A stretch of DNA of 64,000 bases from Polytrichum commune (taxonomy: Eukaryota; Streptophyta; Polytrichopsida; Polytrichales; Polytrichaceae): contig OX485805.1 in assembly GCA_950295325.1 (NCBI GenBank), forward strand, positions 18,589,501 through 18,653,500. Reading direction: 5' to 3'. Numbering within the stretch: position 1 is the first letter of the stretch; each line of letters begins with the position of its first letter. Shown here piece by piece: positions 8,341 through 44,410 of the stretch. The notes under the pieces are model-generated. The model was not told the DNA's origin. It worked only from the letters and a program-made list of their open reading frames with translations, and searched no databases. The translations under genes and the position numbers were made by a program.

Positions 8341-8346
8341 TGAGGT

Positions 8347-11300: not shown

Positions 11301-12425
11301 GGGTACCACGTCTTCTTTGACTTCGTGAGGCATGATTTGATTTGCTCCGGAGTAAGCATGGGCTTGAAGTACTCAATGTCATACGATCCGTATTTCCCAA
11401 TACGGTGAAGAGTATGAACTAAGCTAGTCTTCACATGTGCCGTTTGATTGGACCTGTACAATTGGCATGTCAGATTGCATAAATTGTGAAGCGCCAAATA
11501 AGAGGATAAAAAAAAATATGAGATCAATAATAAAGTACCTGTTGATATCGTGCATGGCAGTGAGGATATCTCCACGACCTCCAGCGGTATCAAGTACAAC
11601 GCATTCAGGATTACCATTCTTTGAAACCCAATGTTGATCTTCAGCATGAAGGGTTTCAATCACCTCCTTCCAAGCTAAGAGCCTATGGTTACCATCATAA
11701 ACAAAGAACATTGAACCACTCAAGTCCACGAGGTCAGGATCTCATTTCAAACAGTTTTTGAATGCATCATTTTCTTGTATCCAGCAAGGGCTTCATTGTT
11801 GTACATCCTCTTGAGTGACAACCCTGATATGACCCTCGTCATCCGTCACAGACACATAAATAACACCTGAATGGGGCTTGTATCCATACCGAAACGCTCC
11901 CATCAACTTAACAACATCACATCGAAGTGTAGGTCTAACCATGGACATGTGAACCATCCTACACAATGGAATTCGAAGGACTGCTTTTGAGACGGGCTGC
12001 CGCCTCATACTTTCGATTACCTCATACATATTGCCATGGAGCAATGTGGTTTGCACATTGTTCCCAACCTTCGTCAAGCCTTTAACTTGCCTTCGAGCAC
12101 GCTCCATAGGTGACTAAAAATGGCCTCCATCACCACTACTCTGGCCTTGACTAGAATTAGCATGAGGATAGTGACTATGATCCCCTACCGAATCCATCCC
12201 AAGTGAAGGCTGCGACTCATCACCGTCGTCGCGATCTCCACTCTCACTGGACTCAGACTGAGGAATGCGCCGTACCCTTCTCTTTTCCTTCCTTGGTGCA
12301 ATGCCTACATCAGGCGACCCGTGCATAACTTCCAAATCCATGTCTCCTCTGCAAAGACTCCCCGAAACGCTTATTGATGACCCTCCAGTTGCAACCTCCA
12401 CACCTTCATTCACAATCGACATCAT
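8347..12425 (-). pseudogene. ParB-like / permuted DNA-methyltransferase-like fusion, 5' end broken
   Basis: Exons read on the minus strand: 12425-11539 (damaged), 11453-11264, 11175-10981, 10896-10448, 10296-9068, 8973-8742 and 8632-8347. All six junctions have GT-AG sites with matching phase, so the last six exons plus the 3' part of exon 1 are continuous. Exon 1 ends with MFFVYDGNHRLLAWKEV, the D/N-G-N/Q-H-R pattern of ParB/sulfiredoxin-like domains. Exon 10296-9068 has DLVIADLPEG (position of motif IV, normally DPPY-like) and ends in GDLVIDVAAATG, which joins NSIRACKSTGRHVLGLESD across the splice; this is AdoMet motif I of N4/N6-type DNA methyltransferases. Order IV then I means a permuted (beta-type) fold. 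A run of about 16 prolines, a KKPKK / KRRR basic patch and an acidic tail follow. Lesions: in-frame TAG at 12116-12114 and frame changes near 11790-11740. The DLPE motif is atypical, so catalysis is uncertain. The 3' six exons look under recent constraint. Confidence 0.72.
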
Positions 12426-12534
12426 ACCAATCTGCACAAAAAGAACTCAAAGTGGCCCCAGTCTAGGTCACAAGCAAACACCACCCCTCAAAACAGAAAT
12501 CAAACAAATGCAACTCAAACACTAAATTCAACCC
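12426..12534. other. short spacer between the ParB/methyltransferase gene and satellite
   Basis: On the minus strand a splice acceptor (pyrimidine tract then TGCAG) directly precedes the first readable exon, so a 5' non-coding exon may lie here or in the satellite. Nothing else is seen. Confidence 0.4.
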
Positions 12535-15500
12535 CTCCAACACCCTTTAGAAACCCTCCATTAGACTAAAACTTGGTAGCCTCATGTCGCAAAAACTATA
12601 AAAAAAAACAAACTTGAGGTGGTAGTTAGTCAAGCACCTCTCTTGGACTACGAAGCTTTAACCAAGGATAACTTCCTCAATACTTGCCTGAATGGGGCAA
12701 GTGAGGTATCCATCCTGATCTACGTGAAACGTACATGCCTATAGAGTGGTCACATGTGCACATCAGACATCAAACCTGAAAGTTATGGACGTCTAAAGCT
12801 GCTGAGGGCTTCTAGCTCTGCATCCGGATGTGGTGGTCGGACCCGACCACCTCTTTTCACCACCCTCTAGAAACACTCCCCTAGACTCATATTCAAAGGC
12901 CTTACATCACAAGAACATCAAAACAAAAGAGAATCCAAAGGTGGAGGTCTGTCACGCACCTCTCCCGGACTGCGAAGCTTTAAACAAGGATAATTTCCTC
13001 AATACTTGCCTGAATGAAGCAAGTGAGGTGTCCATCCTGATCTACGCAAAACCTACATGCCGATAGAGTGGTCACATGTGCACATCAGACATCAAACCTG
13101 AAAGTTATGGACGTTTAAAGCTGCTGAGGGCTTCTAGCTCTGCATCCGGATGTGGTGGTCGGACCCGACCACCTCTTTTCACCACCCTCTAGAAACACTC
13201 CCCTAGACTCATATTCAGAGGCCTCACATCACAAGAACATCAAAACTAAAGAGAATCCAAAGGTGAAGGTCTGTCACGCACCTCTCCCGGACTGCGAAGC
13301 TTTAACCAAGGATAATTTCCTCAATACTTGCCTGAATGAAGCAAGTGAGGTATCCATCCTGATCTACGTGAAACGTACATGCCTATAGAGTGGTCACATG
13401 TGCACATCAGACATCAAACCTGAAAGTTATGGACGTCTAAAGCTGCTGAGGGCTTCTAGCTCTGCATCCGGATGTGGTGGTCGGACCCGACCACCTCTTT
13501 TCACCACCCTCTAGAAACACTCCCCTAGACTCATATTCAAAGGCCTTACATCACAAGAACATCAAAACAAAAGAGAATCCAAAGGTGGAGGTCTGTCACG
13601 CACCTCTCCCGGACTGCGAAGCTTTAAACAAGGATAATTTCCTCAATACTTGCCTGAATGAAGCAAGTGAGGTATCCATCCTGATCTACGCAAAACCTAC
13701 ATGCCGATAGAGTGGTCACATGTGCACATCAGACATCAAACCTGAAAGTTATGGACGTTTAAAGCTGCTGAGGGCTTCTAGCTCTGCATCCGGATGTGGT
13801 GGTCGGACCCGACCACCTCTTTTCACCACCCTCTAGAAACACTCCCCTAGACTCATATTCAGAGGCCTCACATCACAAGAACATCAAAACAAAAGAGAAT
13901 CCAAAGGTGGAGGTCTGTCACGCACCTCTCCCGGACTGCGAAGCTTTAAACAAGGATAATTTCCTCAATACTTGCCTGAATGAAGCAAGTGAGGTGTCCA
14001 TCCTGATCTACGCAAAACCTACATGCCGATAGAGCGGTCACATGTGCACATCAGACATCAAACCTGAAAGTTATGGACGTTTAAAGCTGCTGAGGGCTTC
14101 TAGCTCTGCATCCGGATGTGGTGGTCGGACCCGACCACCTCTTTTCACCACCCTCTAGAAACACTCCCCTAGACTCATATTCAGAGGCCTCACATCACAA
14201 GAACATCAAAACTAAAGAGAATCCAAAGGTGAAGGTCTGTCACGCACCTCTCCCGGACTGCGAAGCTTTAACCAAGGACAACTTCCTCAATACTTGCTTG
14301 AATGGGACAAGTGAGGTGTCCATCCTGATCTACGTAAAGCGTAGATACTAATAGAGTGTTCATATGTGCAGATCAGACATGAAACATGAAAGTTATGGAC
14401 GTCTAAAGGTGCTGGGGTTTTTAGCTCTGCATCCAGATGTTGTGGTAGCACCCGACCACCACCTTTCACCACCCTTAAGAAACCCTCCCATATAGTCATA
14501 CTCCGAGGCCTCACACCGCAAAGACTTCCAAAAAAAAAAATCAAAAGGTGGTGGTCGGACCCAACCACTAGTATCCACACCCTCTACGAACAGCGAATTT
14601 GATTCCCAGTTGGTGGCATCACATTTCAAACACTTAAAACAAAAATCTAGAGATAGTGGTCGGACTCAACCACTACCATCCACACCCTTTACGAACCTTG
14701 AAATTGATTTCTATATGGTGGCCTCACATTGCAAGCACTTCAAGAAAAGAACAATATCCAGAGGTGGTGGTCGGACCCAACCACCACCACCACACCCTTT
14801 ACGAACCGTGAAATTGATTTAGACTTGGTGGCGTCAATTCGCAAACACTTCAAAAAAAATGATCCAGAGGTGGTGGTCGGACCCGACCACCATCATCCAC
14901 ACCCTTTACGAACCTTGAACTTGACTCTGATTCGGTGGCCTCACTTCGCAAACACTTCAAAAAAAAAGATCCAGAGGTGGTAGTCGGATCCGACCACCAT
15001 CATCCACCCCCTTTACGAACCTTTAACTTGACTCCGATTCTGTGGCCTCTCTTTGCAAACACTTCAAAATAAAGGATTCAGAGCTGGTGGTCGGACCCGA
15101 CCACCACCATCACACCCTTTACGAACCGTGAAATTGACTCTCATTTGGTGGCCTCATATTGCACACACTTCAAAAAAATAATGATCCAGAGGTATTGGTT
15201 GGACCCGACCATCACCATCCACACCCTTTACGAACCTTGAAATTGATTTCCATATGGTGGCCTCACATTGTAAGCACTTCAAGAAAAGAAAAATATCCAG
15301 AGGTGGTGGTCGGACCCGACCACCACCATCACATTTTTTACGAACCGTGAAATTGATTTAAACTTGGTGGCCTCACTTCGCAAACACTTCAAATGAAATG
15401 ATCCAGAAGTGGTGGTCGGACACGACCACCACCATCACATCCTTTACGAACCGTGAAATTGACTCTCACTTGGTGGCCTCACATTGCAAACACTTCAAAA

Positions 15501-16145
15501 AAATAATGATCAAGAGGTGGCAGTCGGACCCGACCACCACTATCCGCACCCTATACAAACCGTGAAATTGACTCAGACTCGGTGGCCTCACTTCGCAAAC
15601 ACTTCAAAAAAAATGATCCAGAGGTGGTGATCGGACCCGACCACCACCATCCACATCCTTTACGAACCTTGAACTTCACTCCGATTCGGTGGCCTCACTT
15701 CGCAAACACTTCAAATGAAATGATCCAGAGGTGGTGGTCGGACCCGACCACCATCATCACATCTTTTACGAACCGTGAAATTGACTCTCACTTGGTGGCC
15801 TCACATTGCAAACACTTCAAAAAAATAATAATCCAGAGGTGGTAGTCGGATCCGACCATCACCATCCACACTCTTTACGAACCTTGAACTTGACTCCGAT
15901 TCGGTGGTCTCACTTCGCAAACACTTCAAAAAAAAATCCAGAGATGGTAGTCGCACCCGACCGCCACCATCCACATCCTTTACGGACCGTGAAATTGATT
16001 CCAACTTTGTGGCCTCACTTCGCAAACACTTCAAAAAAAATAAAATCCAGTGGTGGTGGTCGGACCCGACCACCACCATCCAATACCCTTCACGAACTCT
16101 GAACATGACTCAGACTCGGTGGCCTCACTTCGCAAACACTTCCTA
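12535..16145. repeat. satellite array: 322-bp units merging into ~107-bp units
   Basis: The first part (to about 14350) has 322-bp units whose shared start (GGTGGTCGGACCCGACCACC) falls at about 12833, 13155, 13477, 13799 and 14121, plus a partial leading unit. The second part (about 14350-16145) has about 15-16 shorter units every 102-113 bp with the same 20-bp near-palindrome and a common tail (CTTTACGAACC... CGCAAACACTTCAAAAAAA). 322 is almost exactly 3 x 107. The five 78-aa open frames in the first part are identical or near-identical because of the repeat and should not be read as genes. Units 1 and 3 encode the same residues while units 2, 4 and 5 form another type. Confidence 0.92.
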
Positions 16146-16379
16146 AAAAAATATCAATAACAAAATCTTACACCTCAGGTTCAGACAACATACCCTGGCT
16201 CGGTTCGAATTGCTTGGTCGTTGTCGTTGTGAGCAGCTCCTTTCTCTGCCGGCTTCCTGGGACAGCAATGGATGGACTTTAGTTGATTGGTTTGGCTAGC
16301 AATACATATGGCTCCAACCTAACCTAATTAGAAATTTATAATATCAAAAGCAACATTAATTAATGATTGGGCAATCAAA

Positions 16380-16688
16380 TACCTGACTCTCTTCGACAAT
16401 ACTGAAGTCCATCGATAGTTGGAGCTCGGTCTCACACTTTGAGTGGGAAAGTAAAGTAACTTCTTGTTTGACAACTTGATTTTGTACAATCTCGACTGGA
16501 AGCTTGGTAAATTGGCTCGTTAACGACTTGACGGTACCGTCCAAGTTTGCAAATCGCATTGTATTAGTCTCTGCATTTCTCAACCTAGCACGCCTAATCT
16601 GCTTTGAACTAGAGAATAGGGGTTTTCTCCTTCTCCTTCGCTTTGCGATCGAAGGTGTCACACCGTCCAATGAATACACGGCATGCAT
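16380..16688 (-). CDS. unrecognised basic protein, first exon only
   Basis: I do not recognise this gene. From the ATG at 16688 the frame reads about 102 residues and reaches CAG|GTATTT, a good splice donor, at 16380. It has a strongly basic cluster (SIAKRRRRRK, then KQIRRARLR) that could be a nuclear signal, followed by a neutral to acidic stretch. It is divergent from the MULE-like gene, the two ATGs lying about 530 bp apart, so it may be a second gene of the same element or a chance frame. Further exons would lie at 16150-16300, where I see only a weak candidate. Low confidence. Confidence 0.3.
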
Positions 16689-17214
16689 TTGAGATACTAC
16701 CTCATTCACAAACTCAGCTCATCTTTCTGAAATCTGAGAGGACTTTTATGGTGTTTTGCAGCTTGTCTAAATCTCCACTACATTCCAATTTAATATACCC
16801 CTTCAATGATTTATTTAGAATATCGCATAATTGTTATTTTCATCCTTCAAATTGCGGCCAAGGGCAATCGACTTACATCTAAACTCTTATTCTAAATTAG
16901 ATAGATATTTAATTGATCCAATAAATGACGTCGGCTGTGCCTAAATTCGGTTGCCACACATTCCACACAGCTATTTATGCGCTGACATACCTTCCATCAC
17001 CCTTGCCCATGAATTTTACAGCTGCTATAATAATTTTAGCAAACAGCCAATTATCCTACAAGCCTCTAAATTATCGAACTCCATTCTCATCAGCTGGTGA
17101 TGTTCTAGAGTAGGCCATTATCAATTCAATAAATGCATTGGCACGCGCCTCTCTTGATTGCCTTTCTACATAGCAATATCAATCCAGTTGAGTTGGTCTC
17201 AGTCTCTACTCGCC

Positions 17215-20200
17215 ATGGCGGATTCAGTCTCAACCGCTGCGTTGGCTGTGCTCCGCGCCCATGGCATGGGCATTCCTCTTACCTTTCGCGTGGATGAGAA
17301 CGGACATGCTTCAGTGTCTAGTCAGCGTTTGAGTCTTAGATTCATTTTTCTAGAAGACACTATTAGTATTGAGGAGGAGGTTTTCGATGACCTCACGTCT
17401 GAACTAACTCACACAATTGGCCAGTTATCAATTCATGATGAAAATGACTGCAAGATGTGGAGACTTGCTCCCGGCAGGTATAGGGTCTATGGATTGACAG
17501 ATTCCCAGATGGCAGCATCTACGGAAATTCTTACCCCTAGCCGTTCATCTACGTGCACTATGCATACCCCTTTTCCTACTGATGTAAAGGTCAAGGTAGA
17601 GCCAGGACCAAAGACTCCTCTTCTTGCAAAAGTTAAGGTCGAACCGGACACTTTTAATTCAGTCATCACCCTTTCATCAGACGACGATGACAGTCCTCGC
17701 AGATCCACGCCTTTCGTTCCTAGTCCACCCAACCATTCTGGTCAGTCGAAGTCTCCTGTAGTTGTTTCAGATAAGTGTCTTCCATTGCAACCGCCTTCTT
17801 CATGTGTGTGCGTCAGTATCGTAGACTGTTTGAAAAAGCTGGCTACTAGGCCAGGGAAGAAGAATCTCCTAAAGAAGCTTGACTACAGTTCCATTAGACA
17901 TGAGAGAGTTCAGTACTTGCCTGCAATATTTAACGGTGATGTCATGTTTGAGTTGCCTCTTGCCGGTACTTCAGCCTCACAGACGCAAGCAAAATCTATG
18001 CAGGGCATGGATAAACGATACGATGGTCATGTTTGGACCAAAACCATCACGACCAACATCACTAATGATATGGGTCTCTCTTTTCGGTTTTCAAGTTGTG
18101 TCGGTCACCTGCGGTGTGAGAATAAGGAATGCGCCTACCTGACCCGTGAGCATCGCATCTTCGAAGTGAACGAGACAGAGTTTGACGGATGTACCTTGCA
18201 AGCATTTGTTGTTGGCCAGGGTCCTCCCAAATATTCGACTCTGGTTTGCAAGGTGTGTAAGGAACCTCCCGCTTGTCTTGCCACTTGTAGAGCTAAGATC
18301 TATTATGTATCGGGCAAGCGTAACAACACCCGTGTTTGCATCCACCTTGGAACCCATGAGCATCCTGTTAAAGTTGGCGACTATAGAGATACGAAGGTCA
18401 AAATTAGTAGCCTCATCAAAGATCAGATCGAGAAGACTCCACATGCCACGAAGAGTGCAGTTGTGTTGGAAGCAAGTAAAATGCTTGTTGGCAACTACTT
18501 GTTGAGGTCCGAGGACGATCCGCCAAAGACGCTTACTTTTGAGGAACTCGTTCCGGTGCTTGACCGATGCAAGGACATGGCCTCGCCCAACATCCGGAAT
18601 AAGGTCGTCACCTTTAGATACTTGAGGAGGTATGTTGTGATGGATAGCATTACCAAGTTGCGGGGTCTCAGCAACTGGGCTTTTGTGCAAAAGAACATGT
18701 TTCCCGGTCAAGGTGCAGAGCTTGACAAGGTCTTCGTGTTCAAGATGTCGGAGGTGGGGCCTGGAAGTGGGGTGGACTTGGTGAAGCGAATGCAGCCCAA
18801 GGGGGACCTCGAGAATGCTTGGATAATGTTCGACCACGTCAAACGGGTGAGGCAGTGGACCACCATGGCTTGTCATGTTTACGACTCGACTTATTGCCGT
18901 GTGATGACCATCGCATGTTGCGACATGCAATCCGAGGATATTGATGTGCAGATGGTGTTCTGGAAAAACCTCAACGCAGTGATGGAGAGACATGGCGTCG
19001 AAAGGCCCTACTTCAAAGGATTCATGGCGGACAGTGCGCAGGCAAACTGGAATGCCGTCCGGGTCGTATACGGGAACGGCAAGAAGGAGGATCGCATGGA
19101 CGATCGAGAGAGGACTTGTCAGTTTCACTGGACCCAGTCCATGTTGAAATACACGGACAAACACATCGCTGAAAACATGAGGGAACAACACGTGAAGATG
19201 TGCCACCAGTATAGGACGGCACGGACGCTAGCCGAGGCCGAGAGTCTTTACCATGGGCTGAGGGCCTGGTGGGTATCCGCTGGGGCCGTGACTGAAAAAA
19301 TGTTGAGTAAATTGGAGTTGTGGCTTGCCTTTTGGCACTTCCGCTATCGCCAATGGGGTGGATTTATGACAGGGGTAAGCTCATTCGATTTTTGCCATGA
19401 ACATCAATCCGGACTTTGAAGGGTTATATAGTTCTGAATTTTATGCTAACTTGACATTGCATGCGATGCCCAGAAATTCACGGAGGTAGAACTTGCTGAG
19501 ATGCCGTCTTGCAACCTTGCGGAGACTGTCCACAACAAGTGGCTTCAAGCATCCGGCAACAATGGCGGTGATCTTTATGTCGCCACGGTGGATGACTATA
19601 TCCGGGCATTCCTACAGGTTGTCAATTACTACCAGTACTTGAAGGGCGACATGGGCGGGACTGGACCGAGCAAGAAAGAGCTAAGGCTGCGGATGGCGGA
19701 ACGTAGGGCCCAGAAAACAGGTGACCCTAAGGTCCTCCAGGACCCCATGCTAGACATGCCCGGAGCCGACGAGTTCTGTACACGCGACCCTCACATGGCG
19801 GGAGAGGAAGTGTTTGGCTTGATGAAGCGGAAGCTAGACCTGCCCCTTGGAGCTGATGAAGAGTCGCACAGGCCTGATAAGGTCAACTTCTTGCATCCCC
19901 GTGGCATTGGTAGGGTTGTCAGGACTCGTTCCACTCACATGCCAATAATTCTTGAAGAGGAAGATTCTGATGTCCAGAAAATTGCACCCCCAGCGCCACA
20001 TGCCAACGATGTCATCCCGTCCCCCACCCCCAAGGGACGGATCCGGCACGTCTTTGTTGTCGAGGAGACTAGGGTGAACGTGAAGGAGTGGCACATCGCT
20101 CGGTTGCCAAAAACTTCTGCCAAATGTTGTTGGGCCCAAAGAGCTGTCACCAAAAAGAAGTGTACTGAGAGAATCGTAAGGGGTGTGAAATCAACCCCCA

Positions 20201-20958
20201 CCCCTACGTACACCGGTCTATGGCACAGCACTAGGAGGAATGTGAAAGAATCCACAGAATTCTTCTTCTGCTCAGATGATATCGAGAGGTGCGTCAAGGG
20301 TAGGAGGCGCAAATGGGTCATGCAATACTCTGCGCAGCAGGAGAGACCAAGCATTCCGGATGTTTGGCCAGTGAAACTTGGTACAAACCTCAAGCAATGT
20401 GAGATCTTGGCCCTCGAAGCAGCCGGATTCCAACTGCCGTAGAAAGTGACGGTCTCGCCCAGAAGGCTCTTTTCCACAGCCCCGTCTCCGGCAAATCTAG
20501 ACTCCGTGCCGGTGCCCGCGGATGCAGACAGGTATCCTAGCAAGAGAGAAGGGAAGATCGTCAAGCGCACCGCAACCCGTCCAAACCCTCAGCAGAGGCT
20601 ATCCATGGGCTTTTCGGATTCCCTCAAAGCTCGACTCCGCTCGGTCACAATGATTCCTCACCCTGGCCATGGTTGCATCATTGCGCTAGACTCGATGACG
20701 CCACCCGACGTGACACAATACCAAATCACCATCAGCTCCCTTCCAAGTTGCACCTGCCCCACATTCAAGAAGACAATGACCAATTTTAGAGGGAGGAGTC
20801 AGTTCTCGTATTGCAAACATGTCTACTTCATCCTTTTAAAGGTCTGCCATCGCAATCCAGATGTAGACCTTTTCATCCACGCGCCAACCTTCAGTTTCAA
20901 CGAGGTCAAAGTAGTCCTCGAGAGTGGAATCTTAACTCACCCTTTGGATCGGACCTAG
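17215..20958 (+). pseudogene. MULE-like transposase with GCM/WRKY-type and SWIM zinc fingers, one internal TAG
   Basis: Start at 17215 (GCCATGGCG context). Exon 1 is 17215-19374; the intron is 19375-19473; exon 2 runs from 19474 to the stop at 20958, phase 0. Residues about 125-142 hold two VKVEP motifs (SUMO-acceptor type), followed at about 150-159 by VITLSSDDDD, a SUMO-interaction-like motif. Residues about 297-395 carry Cys pairs and CIHLGTHEHPV, a GCM/WRKY-like finger. A DDE-type core follows, with VYDSTYCRV, then FMADSAQANWNAV, and after the splice NLAETVHNKW, matching the D-D-E order of MULE transposases. Near the C-terminus CTC plus YCKH form a SWIM finger (CxCxnCxH). A single in-frame TAG (20440-20442) separates the core from the SWIM finger; the frame is open on both sides. 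TIRs were not found. Confidence 0.75.
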
Positions 20959-25402: not shown

Positions 25403-26817
25403 TTACTCTGGATTACGCTCTAGCCATGATGAGAATAAAACATTCTTCATCCTCTCTCCTGCTACCTTTGCAGCTACACCTTCATGGGGAAGTTGCATTC
25501 TTCCCACATGGAATCCAACATGTGGATCACGACGGAATTTGATGTCGGCAGGAATAGGAACACGCTGGTTATGAATTTCACAATAATTGTGAAGTACGCA
25601 ACACGCTAAGTAACCAGCGCTGCTTTTTCTATAGACATATTAAATGCCTTAAGAATGCGCGAACGATTCTTTAAAGAACCAAAAGCTTGCTCGATTACCA
25701 CACGTCCCCAGTTGACAGAGGAGTCAAACCTGTGGAATCCAAAGAAAAATCATAGTCAAAATTTATAAAGACCATACTATGTGCAAAACATTAATAATAT
25801 TAAAAAAAACATGAAAAAAAACAAAGTCGGATCTAATTTTATCCATCATTGCCGGATCTTCTGGTTTGAAATTCTTCAACATGTATGGTCTGCTAGGATA
25901 AGCAGTGTAGCCCACCGAGTAGGGCCGGATCTCCATTCCAGTGAGATGGATGATCGGCTCAGCTAAAATCTGTCTTCTACTCAACTGTGCAGCTAGGGAG
26001 GACACCACAAATCGCCCTGCATCATGGACACCACCGGGTTGTCCCGCACATACGTTCCAAAACATTCTATTTGTGTCGCAAACCGCTTGCAACACAATAC
26101 TATGGAAATGTTTTCTATTGTAAAAATCTTGGTGCATGGGAGTGTATCGTCTACTGGGTCTGGTGCTCAAAGGTATATAGGTGCCATCTATTGCTCCTGC
26201 AATGTTTGGTAACCCTGTGATGTCCCTAAATTTTTTTATAATGCTTTGAAGCCTATCGCCAGAGGGAGTGTGAATAAACTGAAAAAAAATAAACCATCCT
26301 CACCAGACCCTAAAGCCCGACACACTATCATAGTATACTTGCGAATAGTGGATTCTCCGCATCCATACAAATTGTGCATTCTAGCACAACTCACACCATG
26401 AGCCAATCGGTACAAGACAAGTTTGACTTGCTTTCTCACCGGAATGGGGGGTCTAACAAATGTAGGAGCGGTAGGACGCAAAAACGGCGTCAAGAAATCC
26501 ACCAAAGCCTCAAATGCTAAAAATTCCATGCGATAAGTTTGCCAATACCTCAAATTTAACATTTGGGGGGAAGTATGTCACACATCACCCTTCACAATGT
26601 CATGATGGATGTATTGGCGAGGCTCCACCCACCACATACGACGAGAAAATCGCTGGCTCCACGCCATCGCAGCAAAAAATGAGAGCAAACAGCGCATCGA
26701 GTGTCCTCCCGTCATGTCGATTGGAACATACAGCACTACACGGCGACGTTTACGAGCGTGGAACGTTACTAGAACAACCAAGAACGCGAAGAACACCAAG
26801 ATGGAGTGTTCCGCCAT
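25403..26817 (-). pseudogene. PIF/Harbinger (HARBI1-like) transposase, damaged
   Basis: Three exons: about 26817-26304, 26225 to about 25840, and about 25692-25403. Exon 1 contains YWQTYRMEFLAFEALVDFL and VSCARMHNLYGCGESTIRKY, the N-terminal helix-turn-helix of the family. Exon 2 has NIAGAIDGTYIPL (first catalytic Asp) and AVCDTNRMFWNV with GGVHDAGRF (second Asp region). Exon 3 has RVVIEQAFGSLKNRSRIL (catalytic Glu), then CCVLHNYCEIHNQRVP. All three acidic residues are still present. Lesions: an in-frame TGA at 26580-26578 early in exon 1, a one-base phase mismatch at the exon 1/2 junction, and a frame change in exon 3 after SIEKAALVT. It is convergent with the Myb-like gene at 21.8-22.6 kb; both are expected in one autonomous element. 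Confidence 0.8.
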
Positions 26818-31071: not shown

Positions 31072-33600
31072 ATGTGTAATGGGCTTGGCCTATAGGCCTT
31101 GCCTATCGAGGGCTCCCATCATACATCAATACCCGTCCTCAAACAAACAATACCTAATACACGGTATCGACCGGTGTCGATGTCCGGGTATGAGATTTGT
31201 CCTCCGGGTATTAGAGGGCCCCATTTGCACTGCGGTTCACCCCCTGGGTCACCCGTCGTGTGCTAACCGTATGCTCACCCTTGGTCACCCTTGCTCAAGC
31301 GGCGTTTCGTCCGTCTCGCACCTCTGGTCTGGTCTGGCGATGGCAGAAGCGAGTGAGCTATCAGAAACCCTGTGTCTGCGAATCGGCTCTGTCGGTAGCC
31401 TAGGTCATTTGAACTCGCTCACTCGCATCCGCGTAATCCCGCCATTTCAACGAGGGCATTCTTACGGTCTCCTTCTACATCTTGGAGCCTGTGAGAAGAG
31501 TTCTGTAGGTTCTGATGTGCTTAACTTATCGCCATATGTGCACGAATGCCAGGGTGGATTGATAATAAGGAGAAGTTGTGTAATTGGTGTGGAATATTTG
31601 ATTTCCTATTGTCTGATCGGTGTCAGACCTCAGATTGCTTGCGGCTATTGATTCTTTGATGCCGTAGGGTTTGGCTGGGACTCTTTCTGGTTCATTGATC
31701 CCTTGGTCTGCCTGCAAATTCTGGTGATGCCATTGTTCTGGTTGCGGGAATCGAAAGATCATGGCACGATCTGGAAATGGAGTCTACGCATATTGGTCGA
31801 CAAGTTGAGGAAGCGGAGGAATGGACAGAGCAGCTCAAGAAGGGAGGCTCATTATCTTGCAGTAAGAGGCCCTCATTACTTGGCTGATAAAGTGAAGATT
31901 CCAGGAGGCGATTGTCTTGTGAAGCCGCTTGCCTTTGATTCTCTCTCATCTCTCTCCACTTTTCTGGAGTGGAGGATGACGATTGAAGTACAAGGGTGGT
32001 GCTTGTAAGCTGTAAGTATTACATACTCTTACTGAAAATTGCTATCGTTGTTGCAGTCTTAGCTAGGTTGAAGTAAGTGTAGGCCATCGCAAAACAAGCT
32101 GTTCGATGTTACAACAATTCTGGTTATGAGAAGTTCGTGCTGCTTTTTAATCTGCTTAACTGCTACCTCGGAGGTTTGTTACCTCGTGTAACTCTCCAAC
32201 AGACCTCGCTGCAACAATAAGAGCGAGGTGCGGAGACAAGAGAAGGTTTTACATAAAGTCGCACCATAACATCCAAGGTTGGGAAATATCGTCACGAAAC
32301 AAGCTGTGTTACGTAAGTTTTTGCTTTTGATCTGCTAGCTGCCTCGGAAGTTAGCTTAATTCTGTTATGAAATAGTGAAATCTTCTATCTGCTCTGCAAC
32401 AATGTGAGCGAAGTGCGGAGACAGGTTGTACACATAATGCACTGTTCATTTGCACCATAAATCGAAGGTTGGGGAACATCACAAAACAAGTGCTGTGCAA
32501 CTAATTTTGAAATGATGAGCTCTTGCTCTTTTCGTACATCAAAACAGCAGGTTCATGGTTACCTCCTCTCTGACAAAACAAGTGCGTTGCAACAAGTCCG
32601 AAAATGGATTGTTTGTGCTCCTACTCACCTCGCTACCTCGGAACATTAGGATTATAAATGCTTCTAACTACTGTACCTCTTGACAGATTTACTATTTATT
32701 TTGTAAGTATAACGTAATTGGACGCTAGGAGCGAGGAATGTTTTTTCTGTTAATTGTTCCTAAGTCTTGAATTATGTTGTAGCAGAGGAGTTAGTAATAG
32801 AATGCCATACCTGTGCTTTTTCTTCTCGGTTTGACGTGTTATAACCTTTCAGGTCCTTCACAACATTGAGAAGATTACCCCTATCATTGTTATAAGACTA
32901 GAATTAATGTTAATTTTTCTCTTGCCGATTCAAGTAAGAGTTTCCCGAATTATATTTTCTAGATTTCTTGATTGCGGGGATCATCAAGATTGCAGGAAAT
33001 CGAGTAAGAGTTTGCCTATGTATCGAATGACAAGATCTAATATGAAGAGAGCAACATTAGTCTGCAGGGATCTCTGGTAGGATTGTATATTATGCATCAA
33101 GAGGAATAGTAGCACGTGGGGATCCGTGTTAAGCACAGCAGCTGCTTGAAGTGTATCGAGTTTGCAATTCGAAACTGAAATACTCATCTCTGTCTACGTC
33201 TAAGAAATTTGTTTGTGAGTTTGCTTTAAGCAGAATGGAAGGAAGCACAACTAATGTGTATGTGATGGATGGCAATTATGCAGTGTCTTGATGACAACCA
33301 TGAAACTCTGATGTCAAGAAATTGTACCTAAGTATGCTTTCAGCTTGCATCGAAACTTAATACCATGGTCGTGGATTTTACAAAACGTTGATGACTCATA
33401 GTATCACTGTCAAGGACACAACTACTGCATCAAAGTGGTGAAGGCAAGTACCTCGAAGGAAAGATTGTATCTCTTTGACGAAAACACAGTTCATCTTGTG
33501 AAATCTCCGATTATGTTGAACTGGAGTCATATACATTAATCAAAGGCTGTACACATGTTTGAAACACATGTTTTTGTGTTTTGTTTTGTGCAGGAACCAA
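31072..33600 (+). other. possible 5' region / leader of the H3-mimic gene
   Basis: No convincing long coding frame. An ATG at 31339 opens 103 codons (MAEASELSETLCLRIGS) without recognisable similarity. The motif GAGCGAGGTGCGGAGACAAG near 32221 recurs near 32407 in a larger imperfect direct repeat together with TGCTACCTCGGA-type blocks. The stretch ends in a pyrimidine-rich tract and CAG at 33590-33596 that would serve as acceptor for a non-coding exon ending at 33646. Confidence 0.35.
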
Positions 33601-33720
33601 CATTGAAATTGAACAACATTCGCAATGAGCCCACCAAAGAAGCCTGGTGAGTTTCCATTACATGAGTGTAAGTAGGGTTGTGAGTATGAAAGGGGTTATT
33701 TAAAAGGGATTACTTCAAGT

Positions 33721-33868
33721 CCCACGGGTGTTCACCCGTGGGACTAGGGAAGAGTGAAGATGAATGGGGAGGTGTCCCACGGGTGTTCACCCGTGGGACT
33801 GGAGAAGAATGAGGTTTAGGTCATGACTGAGTTGTGTGTGGGTGTTCCCACGGGTGTTCACCCGTGGG
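33721..33868. repeat. three dispersed palindromes, 55-71 bp apart
   Basis: Identical cores at 33721-33742, 33776-33797 and 33847-33868. Each is arm CCCACGGGTG, centre TT, arm CACCCGTGGG. They lie in the intron 33647-34082, ahead of the first coding exon of the H3-mimic gene. These are the most perfect cluster outside 5.9-6.5 kb. Confidence 0.92.
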
Positions 33869-34219
33869 AGTTGGGAAGGACAGAAGAAGTCCCACGAGGA
33901 GAGAGACGATTGTAGATTTGTTTATGGAATGGATGGGTTTGTGGGATGTGCATATATTTTGGAATAAATTTGTAAACGGACTAAAGAAATGGTTTTGGAT
34001 GTTATAAAGGTTATGTTATAGAGGAGACTACAATATGGGTTCTAGACATATATGTGTAATAGACAGTTGGTGATTCATTCAGGTGCATAGAGGTATCGAA
34101 GTGATTTCTCATTTGAATAAAGATGGCAAGAACTAAGCAAACAGCTCATAAAGGTATAACCACAATACCTATGTGCACGTCAATGTTATATGATTTATCA
34201 AATTTGAGAATATATCATA

Positions 34220-35470
34220 GGGAATTGTTAAAACCACCACGCCTTTTGTTAATGCCACCACGCTCGTGATTTGCAGTCACGTCGTTTGGAATTTTACGCG
34301 CGATGTCGGGGTATTTTAAATTAAACTAATCTCTTGGCGGGCCGGACGAGGGCCGCTATATGAACCATTTATGACGGGGGAAGATCTTTACTATACACGG
34401 GCCGCTTCTAAGGGGGCGGACATTGGTGGGGCTCACTTATGCCGTCGGCCTCATGTCTTATTTCGGGGAGCCCACCTTTAGGCTCTTGTTGGGCTAGGCG
34501 GGCTCGGTGGCTCGGTAGCTACGTGGCTACGTGGATTAGACAACTAAGTATAATTCTTTTCTAGGCCTACTTATTACTAAATAATTAGTTGGTTAGGTCT
34601 ACTTACTACTTAATAACTAGTTGGTTAGGCCTACTTACAACTTAATAACTAGTTGCTTAGGCCTATTTACTACTAATTAATTAGTTGCTTAGGCCTACTT
34701 ACTACTTAATAACTAGTTGGTTAGGCCTACTTACTGCTAATAAGTAGTTCGTTAGTCTTATTTGCTTAGTACCAAAGGATGACTAAGGTTGAGTCAATTC
34801 TATTATGTATTCACACATGTGAATTACACCAATCATCTCGCATTAATTGCATGTTCGGCATCCTAATATCCTATTACAAGAAGTGGGTGCAGAAAGAAAA
34901 TGTCCGTTTAAGACCCGGTTACCTTACAATGTTGGGCGGAGTTGGAAGTGTCCACATTGCATTCAAGTTGTAAACCATGTGTGAGTACATAATAAAATTG
35001 ACTCAACCTTAGTCACCCTTTGCTACTAAGCAAGTAAGACTAATGAACTACTTATTAGTAGTAAGTAGGCCTAACCAACTAGTTATTAAGTAGTAAGTAG
35101 GCCTAAGCAACTAGTTATTTAGTAATAAGTAGGCCTAGAAAGGAATTATACTTAGTTGCCTAATCCGCCTAGCCACCGAGCCACCGAGCCCGCCTAGCCC
35201 AACAAGAGCCTAAAGGTGGGCTCTCCGAAATAAGACATGAGGCCGACGGCATAAGTGAGCCCCACCAATGTCCGCCCCCTAGAACCGGCCCGCGTATAGT
35301 AAAGATCTTTCCCCGCCATAAATGGTTCATATAGCGGCCCTCGTCCGGTCCACCAAGAGATTAGTTTAATTTAAGATACTCCGACATCGCGCGTAAAATC
35401 CCAAATGACGTGACTGCAAATCACGAGCGTGGTGGCATTAACAAAAGGCGTGGTGGTTTTAACAATTCCC
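34220..35470. mobile_element. foldback MULE-type element (1251 bp) with 9-bp target duplication
   Basis: Two long inverted arms (about 34220-34815 and 34975-35470) begin GGGAATTGTTAAAACCACCA and are near-identical over about 500 bp. The flanks are the exact 9-bp duplication TATATCATA (34211-34219 and 35471-35479), the Mutator-class length. The left arm carries extra tandem units of about 40-50 bp (TTAGGCCTACTTACTACTTA...), about six against about three in the right arm. The ~160-bp centre has no transposase. It sits inside the first coding intron of the H3-mimic gene. Confidence 0.93.
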
Positions 35471-36837
35471 TATATCATACCATGCGGAGTACTAACATGT
35501 GCATTGGTTTTCTATAGTATCTGGAGGTTTATCCAGAGCGGTGAATTCTAATATTGAGGTTCTGGGCCCAGATGTGCAATGGTTCATGCAATACAGTGGG
35601 TTTGGAGAGACAACGGTACTGTTGTTGTACATGAAGAGTGGGCCTAATTCCACATGGAGAAAATACTTGAAAGCAAAGTATGTAATGGACATTCAAGCAG
35701 ATGGGAGCCGGATATTGATAATGTGCAAGTCGGCAGAACGGAAGAGAGACTTCAAGGTTGCAGGATTCGTGGAGTCCTTTTCATATGCGGATGTGAATGA
35801 AGAGCTAAATACTGAGGGAGAAAATATCTGCTTATTGAACAGTGAATTTTTTTACTTATTATATAGAATATTATGATACAAATGAACACACCAAGACCGT
35901 GGAGGAAAGAACAATAATGCTCGAGCAAGACTACAAATCTGCTCTACGTCGAGTGAAGGTTATAGTTGAAGAGGCAAAGGCGGCAAGGTTGGAAGCTTTT
36001 TTGAAGAAAAAACAAATCCGCGATGGGAAGAGGAAGGATCCTGCTGATGTCCGAACAGAATCGTCTAGAAAAAAGACGAGACTTGACGAAGGACAAGACA
36101 TTATTGTCAAAGACAGTCCCAACGAAGATGTTGCTCTTAAGAGGGGAAAAAATAAGACAGTCGATCCTAGTCTTTTTTTTTAACTCGAAAAGATTCCGAA
36201 GAGATCGAAGAGTGGGCCTCCAAACAATTTGGTTGGAGACAGCTTGATGGATATTGAGTTGTTAAAAAAAAAAATAATACGGTGTGGATATTCGGCGAAG
36301 GAGTCTCTGGATTTGTTAGTATTCACAATATAGAGCGTGGAGATGAAGGGTATAATTGTCGACCAATTTCCGAGGCGCACTTGAACTATGTCTTCATGCC
36401 GAAGACTCATCCCAACTTCCTGATAATCGTTCCTTCGGATAAATGCAGAAGACCCACCAATTTTAATGAAGTGAAAGACATATTGTTTCATGTGGTTAAC
36501 GGACAATACATGTTGGCAGTCTGCCTAGTGTACGTACATGACCCCAGCAACACTGAACATGTGAAGAGAGTTCTTTCAAAATTGTCGTGTAATGTGGTCT
36601 GGGCCCCTGAAGGTGATGACGATCCTCTATTCCATCTTTCTGGCGTCCTTAATCTGAATAGTGAGTACAGAAAACACTTTCCATCATGGGTGGAGTGCAT
36701 TCAGTACGCTAGGAAGACATGGATTAGACGAGGAAGACCTGCTCGAACTGTACGGGAGAATGCCAACAATACAGATGCTTTTAAGTAGTGGAAGGTATAT
36801 TCTAAACCTGGATTTTTGAATTTCTCATTTGTATGAT

Positions 36838-36861: not shown

Positions 36862-38750
36862 GAGTAGCTTCGGTGTTGTTGATGGATATAAACATACGGA
36901 TTTGTATTCATGGCCGGTGTTTGATGTCACAGGCCTTCATTACGTGTGTCATGTGGATATTCCGTATGGAGACGGAGACTAATTTGATCATGGAGCACGT
37001 CTTATCTGTATTGAGCGATGACATATGGAGGAAGTGGGAGCGAATATTCAAGGAATACAAGAGTGGTGAGTATGTAGATCCAAAGACCCTCGCTCTCTTG
37101 AAGGATACAGAAGGTTTCAAATCGAAGAAGGTGGTCAAGAATGACTTGAAGCACATTCGGGGCTTAACAGAGTTGGAGCTAGACATGGCAGCGGATTAAG
37201 TTTTTATCACCAGAGACGGAGAGAAGCATCCTCGACATACCTTAAAGACTGTGCGCGATTGGGCGGTGAATAGGAAGATTAAGAATGAGACCTACATCGC
37301 AATAGCACAATGTCTAGATCCCACCCCTCGGTATCTTATTCACATTGATCAGAAAGAAATCATTGATCAGGCGGAGTGGGGAGAGTGGAAACGCCTGAAT
37401 AGTTTTGGCAAACGTCAGCGAGAACGTCTTGTGGACTTGATTGGAGCAGAGTACCTAACTAGCGCTTTGAACCCCGCGAAGAAAAAAATACGTATTCTTG
37501 CATGGTTCAAAGAGGGAGTTAAAAACATATTAGGTATGTGGTATAACAAGGTTCGCCGCAGCATGTCGTGTTGTCTATCGACAACAAATACAACCTTAGT
37601 GGTGCAGGACAGTCGTTTGCACCAATACTTCATGCGTACATGGACACAAGGAATCTACCCGGAGTCCAGGCGGGTCCACAGAGTGGAGGGCGTATAAAGG
37701 AGGTTGTGGATTACACTTTACAAGGTTTTTGTCGGGATTTTCCAAGCATTTTGGAGTCCCCCCAATTGTGGACTATGATTTCCGAATATCCAGACCGACA
37801 TTTCATTCATAACGTTTTGAAGACGCATCTGCCAAACACAGTCAGATTTTGTGATGCCTTCTACCATGGTACTAAAGAGGAGAAAATTACATCTCGTGAT
37901 TGTTTCTTCGAATCAAGTGCTCTTCAGATTACAACCTGCATTTTTCCCAACAAAGATGAATCAAGTTCAGAGGTGGCTATGCGGCTTTGCGGAGGCCGAA
38001 AGATGTTGGATGTACATGAACCGGGCCGATATAAACGTTATTAAAAGAAAAGGGCGTATCTTAATGGAGAGGCCAAAACTTTATTCAAGGGGGAGTTGAG
38101 GATGCAGACCTACATAGATATCATCAAACCTTTATGTCTCGAGGGGATATTTTTCCTGAATATTTGTGGAGGAAATAAGGCGCATGTAGTGGCACATGTT
38201 AGTATTGAGCACCTTTTCCCCTAAGTATTTATTGAATGTTTGGTTTTTATCGTTACTTTGGAATATGTACTAAAAAACCATTTCAAGAGTATTTCTTTCA
38301 TTCAATGTTTTTTGCAGGCCTTGGGTATGAAGGTTGTGAACATTGTGCCGGTGGAGATGTTGGAGATGCCAAGACGAAAATGAATGCCGCAGTTGACTGG
38401 AGCCTCCAAAGGTGGTATGAAGAAGGAAAAGTGGCTTCCCAGAATATGGAAGAGGAAGAAGGTCATATCGAAGTGGATTCGGATATTGAGCGCGAGAGGA
38501 TAAGCAAGCGTGCCAATGACACTTATAAGGAGGAGGAGGAGGATGTTCTACATCCGAAAGGTCAGCATGAGCAGCCATCTACCCCACAAGATAACCCAAT
38601 TTTTGACCAAGGGGTGTCTAAAGAGGAAGAGGAAGAGGAAGAGGAGGAGCAAGAGGAAGAGGTGCAGGTGGAGGAGGAGGAGGTCATGGCAAAGGTCATG
38701 GCGGAGGCACAGGTCATGGCAGATATCGAGGGTGGAGGGGCTGGTAGGCT

Positions 38751-38816
38751 CCTCCACGGGTGTTCACCCGTGGAGGATATTCCGAAGCAGGTGCCCCACG
38801 GGTGTTTACCCGTGAG
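38751..38816. repeat. two palindromes inside coding sequence
   Basis: The first (38751-38776) has perfect 12-bp arms (CCTCCACGGGTG and its complement); the second (38794-38816) is CCCCACGGGTGT-TTACCCGTGAGG-like. They sit in the acidic-linker exon without shifting its frame and are translated as LLHGCSPVEDI and VPHGCLPVRIV, breaking up an otherwise Glu/Gly-rich, low-complexity stretch. Confidence 0.85.
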
Positions 38817-40422
38817 GATTGTGGAGGTGGAAGGGGAGGGGGAGGGGGAGGGGGAAGATGAGGTCTCCAACTTAGAGGAAGGTGTTCGTCCACAGCTTGA
38901 TCACAACCTCCATCTCCTTGTGGGGTCTTTTTCGTCCGGTATTCCATCTATACCCGGCCGAGGGATTCTACAGTTTGATACATCTAGAGGAAGTCATGAA
39001 CAACTAGATATTCATTCTATGGAAGAATCTGAAGAGGATGAGCGTCCGTAGTCAATGAAAGAAGCTCGGCTAGAAGCTAATCCTACTCCAAGGTCCACAT
39101 CAAAACTGACTGCGAGGAGGAAAATGAAAGCTCTCCGAAAGGGAAGGTCATCTCTACGACCCCCTAGAGTTGGAGAAAAATCTCGTTCTTCGGAGGTAAT
39201 GGTGCATTTTGGTCTTCATCGCAAGGTTGAATTTGGCCAAGTTCATAAATGTGTTGTGGGTGGTGCAACACAATTGGCGGAGGATGCACATATCAGCCAC
39301 CTTCATGATGTGGAGGATGTTCCGCCAGATGCAAGGATGTCTAAAGCTGTGCATGTTGAAGGGACAAGCGCCGATTTGAACGTCAGTTCACATGTGGAGG
39401 AGGTTGCTGCTGCCGTTCTCGAGGTCCTAGGCCAAGGGAAATCACACTGAAATTCCACTGGAGTTGTGGTGGCAGAGGAGCCTATAGCCGCGCCACCGTC
39501 TAATGACGCAGAGGTGGTCATTCGAACCGAAGTCATATGCTTGGATAGTGATGACGATATGCCCAAAAAATGCGTAGAACTAGATGTGAAGGTGAAGGTG
39601 AGAGATGGAGTTCCACATCGGGTTCGGGGGACGTTTGCCGACTATATGACAGACGATTCCGAGGATGAAGATTATGGGAAGCCTGGGTACAACAAACTGA
39701 AACTAAACTTTATTGATGACCCTCACCCGGTGTTTGCTGGGAGACCTCCACCGAATGCATCGGACAAAGACATGGGAAAGGAAACAGATGGGAAGGACAA
39801 GGTGCATTTTGCCCCATTTGTGGATAAATATTTGTTAGAGGTTCCCGAGAATGTGCGATTGAATTTGGCGCATATGTACAAGTCGTATGACTATCACAAG
39901 ATGTTCGCTTATTTCTCCACTCTAGCGTTTTGTAAAGCAATAAAGGTGAAACATATTCTTCATGCCGCTTCATTACAAAAAATGAAAAAGAGATGGACAG
40001 TGTTTGAAGCTCCAACACATCGTGAAAGACGAGGTCAATTCCAGGGATCCTCGACCGCTCAAGTTGATAGTGTTGTGGACTCTACCTTGGAGATCATTGA
40101 CATTAGTGGAGTGCCAGAGTCTCCAAGGAGCGAAGTCCATGTTGCAGCTGTTGAGTCCTTAAGCCCTCATGTCGGTCGTTTTGCTGAGGCTCATCCGGCA
40201 TTGTCGGAAACGGTAAGATATACCCCCCTCCCATTGCAATTGTATGTTCAGCTTGGAAGCAAAGTCCTCATGGTTTCTAAAAGTCTTTTTGCAATAGGTG
40301 TTGGTTGCGGCAGAAGGGAATGTCATTCCATCAAGTTCTTATGACGACCCTGTACATGCTGCGGATCCCCCCCTAAACCAAGCTCAAGGTATCATATGTA
40401 GTGTTATTTGAATGAACTTGGT

Positions 40423-43020: not shown

Positions 43021-44410
43021 CTAGGCTAAGTTTTGTTTTGGGCAACAATATGCATTCTTGTAGCTTATATGTATCACCCAATGTGCATGAAATAATGTGT
43101 TATTCTATCTTGATGACCTTCCTCTTGTTCTAAACCTTGTCAATCACGGGGATTTACTCGTGAACTACGTTCCCAATGCACGTTCCCATCTGTACGAATT
43201 GTCTCATAATGGCCCAATTGGCTCATTTTAGTTAATAAGGCCATGGTCTCTAAAAACTAATTATGGTGTCAATTCAACTAAAAATATTAATCTCCAAGCT
43301 GCATGTTATTTCAGGGCTTTTATGTTGGATGAATGAGAGGCACGCTCATATTCCATAATTCCCTCCCTCCAGTCGATAAGGCTTGTATGACCTTTGTTGA
43401 ATGTCAACACGTTTAAGAAGCCTCTAGGTAGGGTAGGGTTGAGTAAATACTGTCCATCCCTATGCAGGGGCATGCATGCTGTGGTTTGCGAAGGTTCTAG
43501 CGTCTACTGTCGTTAAAATTTGTTGCAGCAATGTGTAATGTTGTTTTGTACCTGCATGTCAAAACCGACGGGGCATGTAATATACTGTTGGAAAGGTATT
43601 TCCAAGACCTTTCCAAAAATATATTACACACCCTCAGATTATTAACACTTCAGTTGCTAAACCAAGAAAACAAATCTGCAGTTGTTTAGCATCTGCAGAT
43701 CAGGCTGGTCAAAAGCACTGCAACCAATTTCGGTTGCGGTTCTTTTTTGCATAGTTTTCTACTAGTGAGTTGTCATGCAGGCTGTGGCTTGTGAAGGTTT
43801 AGCAGTTACTGCCATTAAGTGTTTCCTGTGGACAGTAATTATACTATTTGAATTCAGTGATCGTGTCTAAAATCCTTGTCTCGACCTGTTGTATTCAAGC
43901 AACAAAACATGCTTTCCACGTAGGTGAATGCAAATAAATCCCCTGGGTTTTGGGTCCACCAGGCTTGGCACTTGGCTCCCCATTGATTCCTGCTTATGTT
44001 TAGTTCAGAGCCTAGTCAATTTTCGAAGCTATAGTTCATTTAAAGCTTGAATTTGCACAAAAAAATGTGGTCTGGCTAGAGCTATTTTACAGTGTAGGGT
44101 GATCAAAATCTTAAGCTCTGGCTATTGTCCTCAGTCACAGAACTCCTGCCATCATTGTACATTTGAAGTCTTGAACTGCCATATTCCATGCCAGCTGCAT
44201 TACCCAAATGTCTACATTTCTTCACTCTTGTCTTCAGAAAAGAGTCATACTCGCAAGTCATGTCCTTGTATAGATTCCAGATGTTCTGTTTGACTACATG
44301 ATTTGTGATTGGGACTGTAAGTTTAAATAATGGCTATTATTAACAGTCATTGGGATTTCAATTTGGTTTATTTGGAATTCAATTTGGTCTAAGGGTTTAG
44401 GGAAGTGATT
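43021..44410. other. non-coding spacer
   Basis: No gene recognised. GTCATGCAGGCTGTGGCTTGTGAAGGTTTAGC near 43770 resembles GCATGCATGCTGTGGTTTGCGAAGGTTCTAGC near 43470, so an old internal duplication is likely. Confidence 0.4.

Follow-up and report, generated by a model that had tools for sequence, protein, structure and literature searches.

Mimicry of histones is already known from viruses and from transcription factors of the host, and VANDAL elements are known to counter silencing. Viral histone mimics such as influenza NS1, with its C-terminal ARSK, are parasite proteins that bear a short H3-like peptide. SNAG domains, with sequences of the type P-R-S-F-L-V-(K/R)-K, resemble H3 only loosely. 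The accessible part of one report describes the SNAG domains of GFI1 and SNAI1 as N-terminal peptides mimicking the H3 tail, and a GFI1 peptide as an inhibitor of LSD1 (PMC5896174). The VANC accessory proteins encoded by the VANDAL transposons of Arabidopsis bind element-specific motif arrays and remove silencing, as stated in the available portions of two reports (PMC5735166; PMC10398659), and the arrays of short motifs diverge between related families (PMC5735166). A transposon protein starting with the literal H3 tail was not found in the open-access PMC literature, among the matches listed.

The window analysed in the present study, a stretch of 64,000 nucleotides of the Polytrichum commune genome (C3:18589501-18653500), contains most of a giant DNA transposon carrying an accessory gene with an H3-like start. 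SNAG domains sit on host transcription factors, whereas here the H3 letters are exact, the gene is transposon-borne, and the sequence is not of the SNAG type. The difference from NS1 is that nine exact residues and the following GG stand at the N-terminus, and that the carrier is a DNA transposon. The features of the locus are listed below in window positions.

1-43244, plus strand: giant DNA transposon, a decayed copy with nested inserts; 5' end at C3:18588750, terminal repeats and GGTC flanks at both ends
2352-5335, minus strand: DUF7869 transposase gene, in pieces (PF25273, E 8.7e-45 for 3271-4422)
33594-33646, plus strand: upstream mini-exon of phase 1 with its own start ATG at 33625, reading MSPPKKP; a similar stretch in 9/11 upstream stretches searched
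33720-33869, strand not applicable: three family-specific palindromes CCCACGGGTG-TT-CACCCGTGGG; further perfect ones at 3184, 6162, 6209 and 38753
34083-34153, plus strand: exon 1, a 5' leader and the predicted H3-tail mimic MARTKQTAHK (coding 34123-34153), from sequence reading; leader acceptor placed by eye
34217-35473, strand not applicable: foldback (palindromic) insert of 1.26 kb within the mimic intron, main arms 92-97% complementary
35518-36788, plus strand: exon 2, with a frameshift in the window copy; it opens with VSGGLSRAV... and comprises an N-terminal domain, a basic segment and an NGQ(H)xxA domain
36933-38221, plus strand: accessory gene, third coding block (e3), 73-79% by tblastn to e3 of relative L012, in two frames
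38236-40344, plus strand: fourth block, acidic and of low complexity, with VICLDSDDD, from open reading frames; counterpart L012 2800-4680
40702-41564, plus strand: NIF/FCP1-like (CTD-type) phosphatase block, 82% DNA identity to L016
43208-43244, minus strand: 3' terminal inverted repeat (core TTAACTAAAATGAGCC...), adjoined by the target duplication GGTC at 43245-43248

The coding part of exon 1 reads ATG GCA AGA ACT AAG CAA ACA GCT CAT AAA G, with the donor GT at 34154, and exon 2, preceded by ..ctatag, joins it in phase 1 as V-S-G-G. The initial annotation had proposed the start MARTKQTAHK, its continuation VSGGLSRA and a phase-correct GT-AG split of the H3 match, all of which were borne out. 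It had also noted an in-frame stop upstream, which is the TGA at 34114-34116, three codons before the ATG; all 24 relatives measured have such a stop 1-3 codons ahead of their ATG, so the tail reads as N-terminal. An N-terminal extension of the tail from upstream is ruled out by these stops in the window and in the 24 relatives. The window intron (34154-35517) is unusually long at 1,364 bases because the foldback insert landed inside it; in the 23 relatives where it could be placed the intron has 97-108 bases. The tail as read in the window proved only partly typical. The R8H change is private to the window copy, the remaining 56 readable copies being free of it, and this copy of the accessory gene is broken downstream. 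Continuation into an ordinary histone, the outcome against which the initial reading was to be checked, is excluded, the exon 2 product being without a histone match; no histone match was found in Pfam for the downstream coding blocks, where a histone fold after the tail was sought.

The genome search covered 408 Mb in 64 contigs. A 23-base degenerate pattern for M-A-R-T-K-Q-T-A gave 55 matches, and its reversed control gave none. Seventeen of the 55 have H3-style codons, and the ten of these that were read are all H3 genes; the other 38 adjoin matches to exon 2 of the accessory gene. With a 41-base pattern allowing up to 3 mismatches, which favours conserved copies, 44 copies of exon 1 were found, and 14 more read from the 23-base-pattern or exon 2 matches bring the set to 58, a lower bound. 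One copy (L035) is frameshifted in exon 1 and is counted within the 58 but outside the 57 readable copies and the tree, and two decayed relatives (L030, L031), with no tail in the fetched stretch, were excluded from the 58. The tail-bearing paralogues for which the initial annotation had advised a search were thus present in the same genome: 37 of the 57 readable copies encode the exact H3 residues 1-9 (ARTKQTARK), and the others read ARTKQTTRK (15), ARTKQTSRK (1), AKTKQTTRK (2), ARTKQIARK (1) and, in the window, ARTKQTAHK (1). The form ARTKQT[A/T/S]RK therefore occurs in 53/57, with departures elsewhere in four copies (R2K twice, T6I, R8H). The phase-1 intron and the V-x-G-G continuation are kept across subfamilies; V10, G12 and G13 are invariant in 24/24 copies, and at residue 11 S was read in 17 copies, P in 6 and L in 1, L028 being left out of this count as its acceptor is changed.

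A search starting from the terminal repeats, independent of the tail, placed exon 1 inside all 38 inward repeat pairs, once in a frameshifted state, and 24 of these pairs hold the exact seven-residue pattern. A chance resemblance or a wrong exon join is exceedingly improbable in view of the empty pattern control, the exon in 38/38 repeat pairs, the conserved intron and the upstream stops, and the earlier opinion that chance could hardly account for the match was well founded. Viral contigs gave 39 pattern stretches with 0 confirmed relatives, and no match was found in phages.

The element in the window is a terminal-inverted-repeat DNA transposon with a DUF7869 transposase. It is 43,995 bp long in total, with its 5' end 751 bp to the left of the window, and the uninterrupted unit, located by comparing two relatives, is about 25 kb. 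The terminal inverted repeats are 23 bp long, and the element ends begin ATGGGGATATTAACTAAAATGAG. The repeat core occurs 89 times in the genome and forms 38 inward pairs with a spacing of 9.5 to 157 kb (24.0-25.6 kb in 19/38 and 19.0-19.9 kb in 4/38). Perfect 4-bp target duplications flank all ten sampled elements and the window element. VANDALs are MULE-type transposons, and the MULE/VANDAL duplication is roughly 9 bp, whereas the elements described here have 4-bp duplications and a transposase of the DUF7869 type, a label kept without a superfamily name; the term DUF7869 was not found in the open-access PMC literature, among the matches listed. In relative L017 the transposase has open frames of 692 aa and 274 aa. 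DUF7869 matches lie about 13-34 kb from exon 1 in nine of ten copies of the L021 and L001 subfamilies, and near the tenth (L020) none was found among the matches listed. The domain is far commoner than the tail family, with at least 150 scored matches among 1,491 candidates; many of the matches lie in frames of 502 aa.

The 3' part of the element carries further genes. The phosphatase block, with a PF03031 match at E 3.8e-11 in relative L012, is well conserved between subfamilies, and a possible substrate of the enzyme is the tail of RNA polymerase II. The VICLDSDDD stretch of the acidic block resembles a SUMO-interacting motif.

Exon 1 bears the marks of purifying selection. Five of the seven representatives compared (L005, L036, L033, L021, L026) differ pairwise by 1-5 synonymous and 0 non-synonymous changes in exon 1, and the same five give pS 0.36-0.78 and pN 0.08-0.19 in exon 2; the other two, L037 (T7) and L027 (K2, T7), show 1-2 non-synonymous differences in exon 1. 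On a tree of 25 copies exon 1 requires 12 synonymous changes, and the non-synonymous ones are seven at codon 7, two at codon 2 (R2K) and one at codon 8 (the window R8H); K4 and K9 are unchanged throughout. With the changes treated as independent and the single T6I copy lying outside the tree, 10 non-synonymous of 22 changes give P 2.6e-3, and leaving out codon 7 gives 3 non-synonymous against 10 synonymous, with P(3 or fewer) 7e-5 under neutrality. It is thus very probable, as judged from the sequences, that the mimic is maintained as a selected functional tail. By genome reading, the gene encodes H3-identical N-terminal residues, apparently under selection, on a predicted non-histone protein, which is one mark of an H3-tail mimic. 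The proposal that a mobile element encodes an H3-like N-terminus is supported by the conservation across subfamilies, the synonymous drift, the conserved intron and start, and the transposon anatomy.

The canonical copies match H3 at 11 of 13 aligned positions, as would be expected if the element had captured a histone exon and carried it without function. Such an origin without function is very improbable given the purifying selection on the tail, the mostly synonymous drift across subfamilies and the codons, which differ from those of the host H3 genes. Simple capture of a host H3 exon was rejected separately, as an intron after K9 occurs in 0/10 of the H3 genes read (of 17 H3-style matches). 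The tail is also basic, and the karyopherin Kap123 reads H3 nuclear-localisation signals, according to the accessible part of the source (PMC5677370), so the tail might be a basic nuclear-import or folding signal that resembles H3 because import receptors also read H3 tails. This seems improbable: a general import signal would not need A1-T3-K4-Q5-T6-K9 and G12-G13 to stay exact, as they do in the copies of the tree, while exon 2 behind them is only about 62-73% identical in protein between subfamilies still keeping the tail, and the accessory protein has other basic stretches.

Residue 7 alternates between A, T and S, with at least 6-7 changes on the tree, more than at any synonymous site of exon 1. 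Methylation decay may not fully account for T7: codon 7 underwent seven amino-acid changes on the tree, against a single one for codon 8 with its CpG, so we read codon 7 as probably tolerant and not merely mutable. In the main subfamily the changed G of codon 7 sits in a CAG (CHG) context. Since A1-T3-K4-Q5-T6-K9 is conserved, R2 and R8 nearly so, residue 7 free and V10 fixed, the residue pattern would fit a partner that holds on to the N-terminus as well as R8-K9 and has no need for alanine 7. In the accessible part of the relevant report, the HP1-type chromodomain of Cbx3 strictly requires alanine two residues before the methyl-lysine (PMC3325965), and the free variation of residue 7 counts against a Cbx3-like chromodomain as the target. 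For the MPP8 chromodomain, the available portion of another report stresses main-chain contacts (PMC3192050), so the alanine-7 limit may not hold for every chromodomain.

The constancy of K4 and K9 on the 25-copy tree, with V at residue 10 in 24/24, also suits a different role, in which the tail is a substrate or sensor: host K4 or K9 methyltransferases would mark it, and the marked protein would recruit readers that guide insertion or self-limit activity instead of fighting silencing. A T7 copy (C2:4153725-4178700), inserted with a perfect target duplication, is in keeping with such a role, and insertion sites are known here from the 4-bp duplications alone; we consider this explanation unlikely, if worth keeping in mind. 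T7 copies have thus transposed too, and movement in trans is conceivable.

Other transposons (L046-L048) that share a similar set of genes were reached through weak protein matches (22-27%). One relative was read with its flanks (L080/L047/L081). The first third of the transposase is matched there at 35%, its DUF7869 part lying outside the stretch. Two blocks of the accessory protein match at 22-24%, the NIF-like phosphatase matches at 31%, and an acidic open frame is alike in composition only and gave no tblastn match. The accessory protein of L047 begins MDKVVFWTDI, and an H3-like start was not found in the fetched stretches of L046, L047, L080 and L048. The tail therefore looks like a lineage-specific addition, and these sequences are most simply explained by a gain in one lineage; alternatively, the tail may have been lost in the other lineages, or the tail exon may lie beyond the fetched stretches.

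Eight mini-exons read from the stretches upstream of exon 1 keep the start, the phase and the donor, with the consensus M-x-(P/R)-P-(K/R)-(K/N)-x; the mini-exon was not found upstream in L076 and L078. Its phase would permit a direct in-frame join to exon 2, giving a predicted tail-less protein, so the element may make two protein forms, with the tail in only one isoform. Joined to exon 1 instead, the mini-exon would form a short upstream open reading frame stopping in the leader, as seen in the copies read by eye. The choice between the mini-exon and the H3-tail exon is thus a possible switch between tailed and tail-less forms.

A similarity to the VANC system concerns short repeated motifs. 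Most families examined carry element-specific motif arrays, with few or none in L027, L028 and L029. In the L005 element 28 palindromes were counted in 30 kb of loci, against 1.2 in shuffles, with one mismatch allowed. The L005, L036 and L033 subfamilies have CCCACGGGTG-NN-CACCCGTGGG. In the L021 and L001 subfamilies the form is CCCACGGGCG-NN-CGCCCGTGGG, in which the two arms have changed jointly; this second form is also present in L027, as one imperfect palindrome, and once in L028. No palindromes were found in the stretch of L029 that was read. This split matches the two main clades of the gene tree and may therefore reflect a single change. The palindromes of the tail-less relatives are TTCCACTCGATCGAGTGGAA, CTTTCACTCGATCGAGTGAAAG or GTTCCTCTCGGCCGAGAGGAAC. 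Genome-wide, the CCCACGGGTG type was counted at 644 places; among the first 50 listed, 36 lie within three bounded elements, which make up 0.16% of that C1 stretch, and 14 lie outside. As background, 5 palindromes were counted at ten H3 loci (1.2 in shuffles) and 6 in the part of the window past 43.3 kb (1.8 in shuffles), more than in the shuffles but of unrelated sequence. The VANC motif is short (YAGTATTAY) and mainly non-coding, and the accessible part of its description mentions no histone tail (PMC5735166), whereas here the palindromes have 20-22 bp and some lie inside open frames.

We infer that the accessory protein binds these arrays. Its NGQHTLAA motif recalls ParB, and a protein with an NGQHxxA motif in elements with many family-specific palindrome copies recalls the ParB/parS partition systems as a whole. 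The difference is that the carrier here is a eukaryotic transposon, and the likeness to ParB rests on the motif and on a weak match of the NGQH domain to ParB-like proteins in PHROG (E 0.11, 2/9 members). No significant match to this domain was found in NCBIfam, PDB or Pfam, and its fold model, made for the window copy only, is poor (pLDDT 43.7).

The SNAG precedent, in which LSD1 is occupied by an H3 mimic, and the VANC precedent of motif-addressed anti-silencing, taken together, lead us to propose a display of the tail at the palindromes. If the gene is expressed and spliced as predicted, the accessory protein would begin A-R-T-K-Q-T-(A/T)-R-K-V-x-G-G after removal of the initiator methionine, that is, with H3 residues 1-9 and G12-G13; position 10 is V instead of S in all the copies read. 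The protein would gather on the element's own palindrome arrays and present the tail there, where host factors recognising the N-terminus of H3 (LSD1/FLD-type demethylases, PHD/ADD-type readers, SET-domain writers) would bind the decoy instead of nucleosomal H3, or as if it were nucleosomal H3, and the element would be held in an expressible state. The peptides ARTKQTARKVSGG and ARTKQTTRKVSGG would accordingly be expected to bind a host H3-tail reader, writer or eraser. By analogy with both systems, we tentatively regard the protein as a VANC-like, sequence-addressed anti-silencing factor working by H3-tail mimicry, a reading that is quite possible though it stops short of being probable. A more elaborate and doubtful version is a pseudo-nucleosome: the palindrome-recruited protein would coat the element with decoy H3 tails that cannot be switched by S10 phosphorylation, the alternative first exons (H3-tail or M-x-(P/R)-P-(K/R)-(K/N)) would toggle the disguise, and residue 7 would be in an arms race with a K9 reader.

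The mimicry suggests a direct communication between these elements and the machinery for reading and silencing chromatin. The repeated family, the natural residue-7 alleles and the tail-less relatives form built-in controls for asking which host factor recognises the tail and by what means transposons evade silencing.

Several other sequences are present in the window. A nested DDE_Tnp_4 transposase piece lies at 25766-26170, and positions 17158-20958 hold a further large set of open reading frames ending in what is presumably a SWIM-like zinc motif. A gene that we take to be CASP-like and repeats presumably of the TTTAGGG type were also seen, features that point to a land plant or a close alga. 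The minus-strand genes at 8300-16700 belong to a nested element. A palindrome peculiar to it, TGGTGGTCGG-NN-CCGACCACCA, recurs at 14871-16054, where the copies sit in tandem repeats of about 107 and 322 bases. This nested element encodes a YDGNHRLLAW motif recalling ParB and is possibly another family of the same style.
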